From: Sulfurovum sp.
GTDB lineage: Bacteria; Campylobacterota; Campylobacteria; Campylobacterales; Sulfurovaceae
Direction of reading: 5' to 3'
Assembly (NCBI GenBank): GCA_027062365.1
Contig: JAMOTK010000033.1
Coordinates: forward strand, 1 to 41,526
Length of the DNA stretch: 41,526 bases
Below the pieces are notes generated by a model. It saw nothing but the letters and a program-made list of their open reading frames with translations, was not told where the DNA came from and searched no databases. The translations under genes and the position numbers were made by a program. Below, in pieces: positions 6,273-21,216 of the stretch; position 1 is the first letter of the stretch; each line of letters starts with the position of its first letter.

Positions 6273-6851
6273 TTAAGACTCATTTACATCAGCCAAGGTC
6301 AAAGCAAAAAGCACATTGACACCACTCGCTATCAACACTTGTTGTGCTTCTTGTAGTGTGATACCTGTGGTGATAATATCATCTACCAAGATAGCATCAA
6401 TATTTTTTTTGCCTGTATAGTTAAAGTCTCTAGGATTTTCTAAACGAAATTGCAAATCTTTTCCTGCATAATGGACTCTATTTTGTGCCAGTAAAGAAGC
6501 AAACAAAGGGATAGAATTTGCTGTTTGCATCGATTTTGTAAGTATTGCTACATGGGCATATCCCACACTTACATACTCATCTACTCCTATGATATAGACG
6601 ATTCTATCATCTGATTCTATAAATTCTTTGATAAAAGGCTTCATCGTCATCTCTGCCAATGCTTTGTAGATACGATACCCTTCTGGTTTATGTTTGGTGA
6701 GTAAAAGAGATTCAAGATGAGCATATTTGTAGAAGCTTATCACATCAAGTGAGCCTATCTTTCGTGTACCCATCGTTGTACCCAAAAGTGTACGCTTACA
6801 TTGTGTACAGATAATACGATAACTCAATCTCGTACAAGCGTAACAACGCAT
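6273..6851 (-). CDS. comF: ComF family protein (phosphoribosyltransferase-like)
   Basis: The 192-aa product shows the ComF arrangement. An N-terminal zinc finger (CYAC, then CTQC at about 3-18) is followed by a PRTase-like domain with the PRPP-binding loop ILVDDIITTG near residue 155. ComF proteins are required for natural transformation in several bacteria, acting after DNA uptake. This fits the presence of a Cts DNA-uptake operon at 25-34 kb. The start has a strong GAGGAG ribosome binding site. It is divergent from eptA and convergent with the zinc-ribbon gene. It is somewhat short for the family but complete. Confidence 0.85.
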   Translation of the reverse strand: MRCYACTRLSYRIICTQCKRTLLGTTMGTRKIGSLDVISFYKYAHLESLLLTKHKPEGYRIYKALAEMTMKPFIKEFIESDDRIVYIIGVDEYVSVGYAHVAILTKSMQTANSIPLFASLLAQNRVHYAGKDLQFRLENPRDFNYTGKKNIDAILVDDIITTGITLQEAQQVLIASGVNVLFALTLADVNES

Positions 6852-6905
6852 AGTAAACTCCTCTTTTGTATTTTTATACGTGATAGTATATCAAGATTTT
6901 TTTGC

Positions 6906-6935
6906 TATACTTACTTTTATTATTTTATCAAGGAA
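6906..6935 (+). promoter_or_regulatory. eptA promoter (extended -10) and Shine-Dalgarno
   Basis: A T-run followed by TG-C-TATACT gives an extended -10 at 6906-6911, so transcription should begin near 6918. AAGGAA follows at 6930-6935, seven bases before the ATC codon at 6942. Both signals place initiation at 6942 and argue against the upstream in-frame ATG at 6801, which lies inside comF and before this promoter. Confidence 0.5.
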
Positions 6936-6941
6936 AATTTT

Positions 6942-8537
6942 ATCAAACATTTAACACAAAATAGACTGGTATTACTTGTATCGGTATTTTTTACACTTTT
7001 TTATAATTATACATTTTTTGACAACACCCTAAAAGTCTATCCTTTTGTAGAAAGTAATATTATTTTTCTCATCTCTTTATTTATAGTCTTGTCTGCTACA
7101 AGTGCCTTGGTCTTAACCTTACTTGCTAGTAGATGGACAGTAAAGTTCTTTTTGATGACTATCATTCTTGTGAGTTCTATGACTAACTACTTTATGAATA
7201 CCTATCATGTCGTGATAGATGATGATATGATACGCAATATGCTACAGACCGATATACATGAAACTATGGATTTATTTTCACTCAATCAAGTGCTTTACTT
7301 TGTCTTTCTTGGGCTTATCCCCTCTTATCTTGTCTATAAAACCCCTTTAAAGTTTGGCTCTATCAAGATAGAATTATTTAAAAAGATAAAACAAATAGTC
7401 TTACTTCTTTTGATTATTGGTCTTTCAGTCTTTAGCTCTTTTGGGCATTATAGTACGTTTGTAAGAGAGCATAAACCTTTACGATTTATGGTAAATCCTG
7501 CCTATTGGATATACTCTATAGGCAATTATATCAGTGCTACCATGAATACAGGAGAAGTTATCATTAAGCCTATAGGTACGGATGCAAAAGTCATAAAATC
7601 TGCCAATGCTCCCTCCAAAATAGTGATTATGATTGTAGGAGAAGCCACAAGAGCTGACCATTTTTCTCTCAATGGCTATGCAAAAGAGACAACACCCAAA
7701 CTCCAAAAAGAAAAACTCATCAACTTTTCTAATATACATTCTTGTGGTACATCTACAGCTGTTTCAGTACCTTGTATGTTTTCTATCTATACCCAATCGC
7801 AGTACAACTACAAAAAAGGCATACAAAGTGAAAACATCTTAGATGTACTCAATCATACCAATGACATCTCTATACTTTGGAGAGACAATAACTCAGACTC
7901 CAAAGGAGTAGCCCTTAGAGTACCTTATATAAGCTATAAGTATAACAATATAAATACTATCTGTGAAAATGGTGAGTGTAGAGATGAAGGGATGCTTGTA
8001 GGACTAGATAGCTATATCGAAGAACAAAAAGATAAAGATATTCTCATCATCTTACATCAAATGGGTAACCATGGACCAGCATACTTCAAACGCTACCCTA
8101 AAGCATTTGAAAAGTTTACCCCTGTATGTAAGACCAATCAGCTAGAAGAGTGTACACAAGAAGAAATCAGCAATGCCTATGACAATGCTATACTCTATAC
8201 AGATGATTTTCTCAGTAAAACCATTGCCCTACTTAAAAAGTATAAAAATACCCATCAAACTGCAATGTTTTATATGAGCGACCACGGAGAAAGCTTAGGA
8301 GAGAATGGTATTTATCTGCATGGATTACCCTATTTTATGGCACCATCTGCACAAACACATATCCCTGCATTTATATGGTTCAATGAAAGCTTCAAAAAAG
8401 AAGTCCAAGCACAAAAGATAAAAAGTAACGCACGATATACCCAAGACAATCTTTTCCATACACTCTTAGGACTTTTTAATGTCCAAACAAGCGTGTATGA
8501 CCCTACATTAGATATATTTTATACTACTGGAAAATAG
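6942..8537 (+). CDS. eptA: Phosphoethanolamine transferase (EptA/EptC-type), apparent ATC start
   Basis: The 531-aa product has five N-terminal membrane helices (to about residue 160) and a periplasmic alkaline-phosphatase-fold domain. The nucleophile threonine lies in GEATRADHFS; further metal-site landmarks are SDHGESLGENG and LHGLP. The enzyme moves phosphoethanolamine from phosphatidylethanolamine to lipid A, and in Campylobacter EptC also to flagellar and glycan targets. The natural N-terminus reads KHLTQNRLVLL, as is usual for the family. The codon before it, correctly spaced from AAGGAA, is ATC instead of ATG. No ATG, GTG or TTG lies in frame between the promoter and the first helix; CTG at 6969 is the only other candidate. 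Either ATC is used weakly or the start is mutated. Confidence 0.85.
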   Translation: MKHLTQNRLVLLVSVFFTLFYNYTFFDNTLKVYPFVESNIIFLISLFIVLSATSALVLTLLASRWTVKFFLMTIILVSSMTNYFMNTYHVVIDDDMIRNMLQTDIHETMDLFSLNQVLYFVFLGLIPSYLVYKTPLKFGSIKIELFKKIKQIVLLLLIIGLSVFSSFGHYSTFVREHKPLRFMVNPAYWIYSIGNYISATMNTGEVIIKPIGTDAKVIKSANAPSKIVIMIVGEATRADHFSLNGYAKETTPKLQKEKLINFSNIHSCGTSTAVSVPCMFSIYTQSQYNYKKGIQSENILDVLNHTNDISILWRDNNSDSKGVALRVPYISYKYNNINTICENGECRDEGMLVGLDSYIEEQKDKDILIILHQMGNHGPAYFKRYPKAFEKFTPVCKTNQLEECTQEEISNAYDNAILYTDDFLSKTIALLKKYKNTHQTAMFYMSDHGESLGENGIYLHGLPYFMAPSAQTHIPAFIWFNESFKKEVQAQKIKSNARYTQDNLFHTLLGLFNVQTSVYDPTLDIFYTTGK

Positions 8538-9536: not shown

Positions 9537-10601
9537 ATGACTAAAAGTATGAAAGCCAATACCAACTTATTTGAAGAGCATAAATTCCCTCGTACGAGAT
9601 ATCAAGGGAGTAAATATAAGCTTCAAGAGTGGATTCAATCTCATTTGGAAACACTAGAATTTAATACGGCATTAGATGCTTTTTGTGGTACAAGTTCTAT
9701 TGCTTATATTCTTAAAGAAATGAATAAAACAGTTTATACCAATGATATATTAAAATGTAATTATGATATGTCACAAGCATTGATTACTAATAATAATGAG
9801 CAGATAACAAGAGAAGATTTTGAACAAATTCTTGTTAAAAAAGAATCTTATGATTATGCTTCTTTGATAGCCGATACCTTTGAAGATATTTATTTTTTAG
9901 AGGAAGAAAATACTTGGTTAGATATAGTGATACAAAATATTCATCAACTCAAAAATACCCATAAAAAATATATGTTTTTGTGGGCATTGTATCAATCTTG
10001 TATCTCCAAACGACCGTATAATCTATTTCATCGTAAAAACCTCTATGTAAGAACTTCTGATGTCAAACGAAATTTTGGCAATAAAACCACATGGGACAAA
10101 CCCTTTGAAGAACATTTTTATAAATTTATCAAAGAGATAAATAGGGCTATTTTTGATAATAAGCATACGCATAAAGCCTATAATAAAGATGTCTTTGACC
10201 TAGATATTCAAGTAGATTTAGTCTATTTGGATACGCCTTATATCCCACAAAAAGGCTCACTCACACATTATAGAGATTTTTATCATTTCTTAGATGGATT
10301 AAGTGATTATCACAATTGGCAAGAAAAGATAGATAGTTCTTCTAAACATAAAAAATTAAAATCTATCTATAATATTTGGGAAGATAAAAAAAATATTCTC
10401 AAAGGCTTTGAAGCCCTAATAAAAAAATTTAAAGAGAGTATCATCGTTATCTCTTATCGTGCTGATGGTATTCCTAGTATTGATGAAATTGTATCCATTT
10501 TAGAAAAAAATGCTAAAAAAGTAAGGGTTGAGATGATAGATTATAAATATGTACTTTCAAAGAAACAGAACTTAAAAGAAGTTTTGATTATAGGAGAATA
10601 A
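9537..10601 (+). CDS. D12-class (Dam-like) DNA adenine N6-methyltransferase
   Basis: The 354-aa product carries the AdoMet-binding motif I DAFCGTSS (about 47-54) after the TRYQGSKYKL segment typical of D12-class enzymes. Its catalytic motif IV is DTPY (232-235), a variant of DPPY. It stands one base upstream of an EcoRV-like endonuclease and is most simply its protecting methyltransferase, methylating adenine in the same site. It does not closely resemble M.EcoRV as I remember it, so the pair may have been assembled from different sources. The first good start is at 9537; a second ATG four codons downstream is possible. Neither has a strong ribosome binding site. Confidence 0.85.
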   Translation: MTKSMKANTNLFEEHKFPRTRYQGSKYKLQEWIQSHLETLEFNTALDAFCGTSSIAYILKEMNKTVYTNDILKCNYDMSQALITNNNEQITREDFEQILVKKESYDYASLIADTFEDIYFLEEENTWLDIVIQNIHQLKNTHKKYMFLWALYQSCISKRPYNLFHRKNLYVRTSDVKRNFGNKTTWDKPFEEHFYKFIKEINRAIFDNKHTHKAYNKDVFDLDIQVDLVYLDTPYIPQKGSLTHYRDFYHFLDGLSDYHNWQEKIDSSSKHKKLKSIYNIWEDKKNILKGFEALIKKFKESIIVISYRADGIPSIDEIVSILEKNAKKVRVEMIDYKYVLSKKQNLKEVLIIGE

Positions 10602-10602
10602 G

Positions 10603-11553
10603 ATGTCATTTGAAGAAAAGTTTAATGCATTCATTCCAGAACTTACCGAAGCACTGAGTGTACCTAAAGGTAGAGATTGGTCAGTTAAAGGGTTTATAGA
10701 TGTTCATCAAAATATTTATTCCATAAGTAATGATACCAAAGTAGTTTCAAAAATTATAGAATTGATGATTTTCCCCAAACTTTTAGAATTTGCACAAAGG
10801 CATGATTTAGAGTTAAAACTATCGCCCTATCAAAATTATTATCCCGATGTCACTTTTATAGACTCTACTGGTAAAAAATATGCTGTAGATTTGAAATCTA
10901 GTTATAAATCATCAAAAGACAAAATCAACGGAATGACATTGGGTGCATTTACAGGCTATTTTAGAAATAGAACTTCTTCAAAAAATACACTCTATCCTTA
11001 TGGTGACTATCATCAACATTATGTATTTGGCATTATCTACTCACGCACAGATATTACACAAATTGAAGAATATTTAGCTTCTTTGGATATAAATATTTCC
11101 ATTACAGTCAAAAAACTTTTTGTTGAGTATATCAATGAAAATAGTGATAGTAAATGGCAAAATATAATCCATAAAATAGCATTAAGCCAAAAAAATAGAG
11201 CTAAAATAGATAGCTTTATAATGAAAGAAACAGATATACATACGCTTGATAATTTTACACAAATTCAATCTGTAGTGAGAGACTTTGAGTTCTTTATTCA
11301 AGAAAAATGGAAAATAGCCACAGATAGAGCAGGAAGTGGAAACACCAAAAACATCGGTTCAGAACTAAATATACAAAGATTAAAATCAGGCGAAGGTCTC
11401 TTTCAAAGAAAATTTGGAATAGATGGTAAAAAAGTCTTTGATAATTATTGGATGAATTACGAAACCAAAAGCATGGCAAAAGATGCAGGTAGAGACAGTC
11501 CACACTTTAATAATATTGAGAGTTATTTGGAGTGGAAAAAGGGTTTTAAGTAA
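10603..11553 (+). CDS. Type II restriction endonuclease, EcoRV-like
   Basis: The 316-aa product follows EcoRV (245 aa) over most of its length. The active site is present: Glu53 (EcoRV E45), Asp82 in YPD (D74), and Asp96 and Lys98 in VDLK (D90, K92). The DNA-recognition loop AGSGNTKNIGS (243-253) is nearly identical to the EcoRV R-loop, and the Gln-rich loop before YPD is similar (YQNYYPD). TLGAFTGYFRN and NYWMNYE also align. Retention of the recognition loop predicts cleavage of GATATC. An extra ~50-60 residues lie between the two conserved blocks (about 150-220). ATAGGAG overlaps the end of the methyltransferase gene, so the pair is co-transcribed. Confidence 0.9.
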   Translation: MSFEEKFNAFIPELTEALSVPKGRDWSVKGFIDVHQNIYSISNDTKVVSKIIELMIFPKLLEFAQRHDLELKLSPYQNYYPDVTFIDSTGKKYAVDLKSSYKSSKDKINGMTLGAFTGYFRNRTSSKNTLYPYGDYHQHYVFGIIYSRTDITQIEEYLASLDINISITVKKLFVEYINENSDSKWQNIIHKIALSQKNRAKIDSFIMKETDIHTLDNFTQIQSVVRDFEFFIQEKWKIATDRAGSGNTKNIGSELNIQRLKSGEGLFQRKFGIDGKKVFDNYWMNYETKSMAKDAGRDSPHFNNIESYLEWKKGFK

Positions 11554-20777: not shown

Positions 20778-21155
20778 TTAATCACTCGTATTGTCTTCTT
20801 CCATATACTCTTCTATAAAAACACTTTGACTATTTTTAATTTGTAAATAATCATAAATAGCTTTGATTTCATCATTGGTCAAATAATAGCGAGGCATCAC
20901 TTCATGATATGTATTGACTGAATGAATCATTGTAGCAAGAGCATCGTGACGAATATTTGAACCTCTAAGTTCTATTTTATTGCCCTCTTTATCTTTATAT
21001 TCAACAATAATCATCCCTTCACCACTCTTACCATGACATTGGGCACAACTAACACCTCTAGGGTTTTGATAAAGCATCTCTCCATATTCATAATGAGAGA
21101 TAAAAGCCTCTTGTCCAAATGCTAAAAAAGGGTATAATAACCATAATAGTCTCAA
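20778..21155 (-). CDS. Small periplasmic c-type cytochrome, TTG start
   Basis: The 125-aa product has a short signal peptide (LLWLLYPFLAFGQ), one haem-binding motif CAQCH (about 37-41) and a distal methionine in VMPRYYLTNDEI. This is the class I cytochrome c pattern often seen in Campylobacterota electron-transfer chains. The start is TTG at 21155, correctly spaced from GGAG; there is no upstream ATG in frame. It is divergent from folD with only 61 bp between them, so the two promoters share this gap. The redox partner is not known. Confidence 0.85.
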   Translation of the reverse strand: MRLLWLLYPFLAFGQEAFISHYEYGEMLYQNPRGVSCAQCHGKSGEGMIIVEYKDKEGNKIELRGSNIRHDALATMIHSVNTYHEVMPRYYLTNDEIKAIYDYLQIKNSQSVFIEEYMEEDNTSD

Positions 21156-21216
21156 TATTTACTCCATAAAAGAAAATTTTTTTGATATAATACCTTAAAA
21201 AATATAAGGGCGTTCT

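Follow-up and report, generated by a model that had tools for sequence, protein, structure and literature searches.

A near-cognate ATC codon, probably maintained by selection, as the start of a predicted EptA/MCR-like gene in Sulfurovum

The question raised by this locus is where translation begins in a gene whose apparent start codon is ATC, given that annotation usually accepts only ATG, GTG and TTG as starts, according to PMC5472188. The window, by which we mean the whole stretch of 41,526 nucleotides analysed (Sulfurovum sp., contig JAMOTK010000033.1), lies on one contig of a 2.30-Mb draft genome in 77 contigs. On its plus strand, at 6942–8537, it carries an EptA/MCR-like lipid A phosphoethanolamine transferase gene of 531 codons plus the stop (8535–8537), and the codons ATC AAA CAT TTA ACA CAA AAT AGA (IKHLTQNR), read from 6942, are in frame with that stop. 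The start codon that we read here from the sequence, the relatives and pN/pS, ATC at 6942–6944 (+), is neither ATG, GTG nor TTG; it is near-cognate. It is preceded by a Shine-Dalgarno (SD) motif, AAGGA (6930–6934, +), with a 7-nt spacer, and by an extended -10 promoter-like element, TGCTATACT (6903–6911, +), 30 nt before the ATC. No stop interrupts the frame over the 63 codons 5' of the ATC; the sole canonical codon in this open stretch is a TTG at 6801, 47 codons 5' of the ATC and 5' of the promoter-like element as well. In the 3' direction, the first in-frame canonical codon is a TTG at 7089, codon +49. A structure hiding the start was considered and rejected, as the region 6918–6977 folds at -0.9 kcal/mol (z +1.23) and therefore offers no stable hairpin at the eptA-like start.

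The product of 6942–8537 is a predicted EptA/MCR-like lipid A phosphoethanolamine transferase. Both expected Pfam domains are present (EptA_B_N, 1.3e-44; Sulfatase, 1.5e-64), the family model NF028537 is matched with 647.8 bits against a cut-off of 500, and the structural homologues include MCR-1 (9nww, E 8.9e-129) and EptA (5fgn, E 1.3e-101). The motifs VGE, SCGTSTA, GNHGP and SDHGESLGENG..LHG align with those of MCR-1 9nww, which we take to be the nucleophile threonine and the zinc ligands. The divergent neighbour is a comF-like gene (6273–6851, minus strand; TIGR00201 E 6.8e-11, below the cut-off of that model), and this divergent layout recurs in six relatives: among loci L001–L090, comF-like tblastn matches adjoin eptA in L002, L003, L004, L007, L043 and L060. 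Further along the window, at 9537–11553 (+), a D12-class adenine methyltransferase gene stands beside an EcoRV-type restriction endonuclease gene (PF09233, 2.2e-87), probably forming a type II restriction-modification pair.

We read the start regions of 150 eptA-like loci, nine of which are partial or split (L029, L043, L045, L051, L059, L069, L129, L154 and L160). After removal of identical rows, rows below 45% identity and rows shorter than 430 residues, the tree set comprised 128 rows, among which we placed L062 and L169 in the AUH class (ATA, ATC or ATT) and L130 in the canonical class by hand, and likewise left L036, L037, L048 and L157 unclassified. AUH starts occur in 24 of the 128 rows (ATC 13, ATT 6, ATA 5, ATG 0) and canonical starts in 100 (ATG 54, TTG 37, GTG 9), the other 4 being the unclassified ones. 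The sequence-only reading had stated that homologues have ATG exactly at this position, which does not hold: the closest intact relatives (L002, L003, L060 and L005, 65–69% identity) show ATC, ATC, ATC and ATT, and canonical starts lie mainly outside the clade that contains the window (see below). The placement goes beyond chance. In 21 other relatives, AUH stands at the window's alignment column behind a scored SD; in L062 it occupies that column with no SD scored, and L169, outside the main clade, has an ATT with SD three codons 5' of the column. The scorer detected SD-like motifs of at least 4 bases in 22 of the 24 AUH rows, with lengths of 4–6 bases.

By taxon, 17 of the 24 AUH rows (the window included) belong to the window's genus and 7 to other families of the order. 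On the tree the AUH label requires 6 changes versus a shuffled mean of 22.3, and none of 500 shuffles was as low. The 37-row clade holding the window (SH-aLRT 97) contains 21 AUH, 14 canonical and 2 unclassified rows, with the remaining 86 canonical rows lying outside it; AUH is therefore not obligatory in this clade, although the smallest groups with support around the window, of 4 and 5 rows, are AUH throughout. Because orthologues are not independent, the 24 AUH rows represent fewer events. L043, the nearest relative with 86% over its best segment, keeps ATC and has in addition an in-frame ATG two codons 5', from which its SD would sit only about 1 nt away; the assembly of L043 (G039) shows split frames in its eptA and infC matches, making small differences in L043 unreliable. 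L036 and L037, which fall within the AUH portion of the tree, have an ATC at codon -3 with SD and an ATG at -10 without one, and were set aside as ambiguous; L063 and L064 duplicate these two sequences.

Every AUH codon encodes isoleucine, and with 63 open codons upstream in the window the ATC could be read as an internal residue of a longer protein begun further 5'. We regard this as very improbable. In six AUH relatives an in-frame stop precedes the codon with 0 (L078), 1 (L017, L066), 3 (L002, L003) or 4 (L010) codons between, so that the AUH codon there cannot be an internal isoleucine. Moreover, across 18 pairs of AUH orthologues pN/pS fell from 0.93 over codons -16 to -5 to 0.15, 0.24, 0.08 and 0.18 for codons 1–10, 11–20, 21–30 and 31–40, placing the onset of purifying selection at the AUH codon. 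In the 12 codons before the AUH codon, none of the AUH rows shows a canonical codon that has a scored SD, and the window's column is itself occupied by ATG, TTG or GTG in 46 of the 100 canonical rows, many of these starts having a similarly spaced SD. Fifteen of the 24 AUH rows carry the extended -10 pattern 20–60 nt before the start, compared with a mean of 1.2 (maximum 5) in 500 letter shuffles and 0 or 1 in each of eight control windows. Translation from the downstream TTG at 7089, which would yield a shorter enzyme, draws on the fact that TTG is a normal start in these genomes (TTG in both members, with SD scored, in 15 of 511 control gene pairs, see below). We consider it scarcely credible, however, since the first 40 codons, which such a start would leave untranslated, are under purifying selection in every ten-codon bin (0.08–0.24), L003, L009, L010 and L017 lack any canonical codon up to +49 and L060 lacks one up to +39, and the first membrane segment would presumably be dropped. 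The earlier choice of ATC at 6942, made from a well-spaced AAGGAA and the extended -10, is borne out by the pN/pS step and the relatives' stops.

The ATC is a single base from ATG and the assembly is a 77-contig draft, and the sequence-only reading had raised the possibility that a start mutation had switched the gene off. A mutation or sequencing error leaving the gene silent or nearly so has, in our view, only a very slim chance of being correct: the same codon class occurs in 23 other rows with differing third bases, and dN/dS across the gene is 0.05–0.15 (seven pairs), which together with the intact frame indicates that the gene is not decaying. A class that persists, with changing third base, in clustered fashion over 24 rows would not be explained by a mutation in one strain. 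It might instead be that AUH is a real start that persists through drift or mutation bias and serves no regulation, any weak start being enough, and the mixing of AUH and canonical rows in one clade fits such an account. Nevertheless, among the eptA AUH rows ATA, ATC and ATT have interchanged at least 8 times on the tree, never giving G, and the third base is likewise not G in 30/30 DUF234 loci and 33/34 response regulator loci (see below), so that we deem this account unlikely. Initiation at ATC 6942 and avoidance of G at the third base are, on these sequence comparisons, well supported, and we consider it likely that selection has kept this ATC as a near-cognate start, one that would limit how much enzyme is made and render its level sensitive to initiation stringency.

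For a control we set 1.2 Mb of G016, roughly half of that genome, against 0.8 Mb of the related G050, roughly a third of it, and obtained 511 non-overlapping reciprocal-best gene pairs. A shared canonical codon was present near the alignment start in 482 of these and absent in 29. When AUH with an SD was required in each genome, five pairs remained, of which two are clear cases; the three others (G016 613688, 232465 and 674276) were dropped, since an ATG with an SD lies close by in each. Of the other pairs among the 29, the part viewed included several alignments that extend past a normal start into the sequence before it, and two AUH genes is a lower bound. The eptA gene lies outside the compared stretch of G050; applied to L004 and L010, the procedure does detect it. 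When the window was compared with G016 as a blind control, eptA was the sole one of 24 pairs with AUH plus SD at the aligned start and no canonical start; five other pairs lacked a canonical start at the identical column, and none of these had AUH with SD. None of the 18 window/G050 pairs had AUH with SD. Within the window, another AUH candidate (20781–21161, minus strand) was rejected, as it reads as a TTG start.

The first of the two clear cases encodes an OmpR-type response regulator with Response_reg and Trans_reg_C domains (G016 348025–348708; loci L261–L294, comprising 30 genus loci, three from sister genera and one, L292, from the window's genome at G000:C22 near 13051). Its start is AUH in 33 of the 34 loci (ATT 24, ATC 8, ATA 1), each with a scored SD, and ATG in L274; tblastn failed to pick up five of the 34 loci, whose starts were obtained by scanning the sequence directly, and the pN/pS and base -1 counts for this gene use 29 of the 34. 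Of 24 further loci of the order, 22 carry an ATG for the regulator at the column or within 5 codons of it; L301 and L311 have ATT, together with TTG at +4 and an ATG at +5. In G016 a gene with HAMP and HisKA domains (a histidine kinase) overlaps the end of the regulator gene. The second case is a DUF234 protein (PF03008; G016 699460–700350; loci L339–L368), AUH in all 30 genus loci read (ATC 12, ATA 11, ATT 7), these being the best 30 from the 72 matching genomes of 78. Upstream of the AUH codon pN/pS was 0.98 for both genes, and in codons 1–10 it was 0.03 for the regulator and 0.34 for DUF234.

Counted over the three genes, 82 starts (the ATG of L274 among them) include 72 with a pyrimidine at -1. 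The corresponding counts are 245 of 516 for ordinary shared SD starts and 21 of 46 for the canonical eptA starts that occupy the window's column. The counts for the three genes come from orthologues, which are not independent. The gene for initiation factor IF3, infC (L091–L120), begins with TTG and an SD in 30 of 30 genus loci (15 codons scanned; best 30 of 64 matching genomes), which places the classic autoregulated AUU gene outside the AUH set of the genus. A special initiator tRNA was also considered and dropped: ARAGORN lists 26 tRNAs in G016 (1.2 Mb) and 22 in G050 (0.8 Mb), and three of the listed tRNAs have the anticodon CAU, in a comparison made by anticodon only.

How might such a start act? 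According to PMC5472188 and PMC13009471, initiation complexes are destabilised by IF3 unless the codon is AUG, GUG or UUG; in Staphylococcus aureus, AUU and AUA are translated at about 10% of AUG, with ccpN reaching up to 30% in rich medium (PMC13009471). By analogy, attenuation probably proceeds via IF3 proofreading. A normal SD would place the ribosome on the eptA-like mRNA, the initiator tRNA (CAU) would pair imperfectly with the third base of the AUH codon, and IF3 proofreading, if it works as in E. coli and Streptomyces, would reject most of the AUH complexes. The enzyme would then be held to a low maximum level. Its relative MCR-1 is harmful in excess, over-expression lowering growth and viability (PMC5727292), and the level of the eptA-like enzyme should rise as IF3 stringency falls. 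We infer low output, IF3 control and the toxicity rationale from such analogies, and the earlier expectation that a non-canonical start should limit expression stands on the same footing, as it is drawn from precedents in other species. More tentatively, the eptA-like gene, the OmpR-type regulator and DUF234 may form a small, lineage-wide set in Sulfurovum, a translation-level regulon responding jointly to initiation stringency (IF3 level or activity); we see this as possible rather than probable. If true, the regulon would join envelope modification and signalling.

In three unrelated genes of one genus, then, A, C and U change freely at the third base of the start codon and G is almost absent, which makes start-codon weakness a measurable and apparently selected trait. 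This suggests that a lipid A-modifying enzyme with a costly excess could be held low without a dedicated regulator. Conserved AUH starts have, to our knowledge, been described for few genes of bacteria. With annotation limited to ATG, GTG and TTG, AUH genes may be truncated or given wrong starts in databases.

Among known systems, the EptA and MCR phosphoethanolamine transferases have the same domains and catalytic motifs as the window product, and the full-text literature searched, which excludes most subscription papers, yielded no paper on a phosphoethanolamine transferase with a non-canonical start; the titles and abstract openings found likewise mention no AUH-start case for Sulfurovum or for such an enzyme. 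Binns and Masters reportedly described, in 2002, an AUU start for pcnB of E. coli. Like the eptA-like gene, pcnB would be an enzyme gene limited by an inefficient start, albeit an unrelated gene in another phylum. The infC genes of E. coli, Streptomyces and S. aureus share with eptA an AUU, AUC or AUA start, in S. aureus with a good SD (PMC5472188 and PMC13009471), but infC autoregulates via its own product, whereas the eptA-like gene encodes a lipid A enzyme. Closer in their conserved AUH codons are ccpN (AUA) and cvfC1 (AUU) of Staphylococcus, with an output of about 10–30% of AUG; these use extended SD pairing, while the scored SDs of the eptA rows span 4–6 bases (PMC13009471 for the staphylococcal genes). 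Finally, sigR of Streptomyces has a conserved non-canonical start with a third base other than G (GTC 32/34, GTT 2/34) that is repressed by IF3 (PMC5472188); it belongs to the GUC class, encodes a sigma factor and was established by experiment, whereas the eptA-like case is of the AUH class and concerns a lipid A enzyme.
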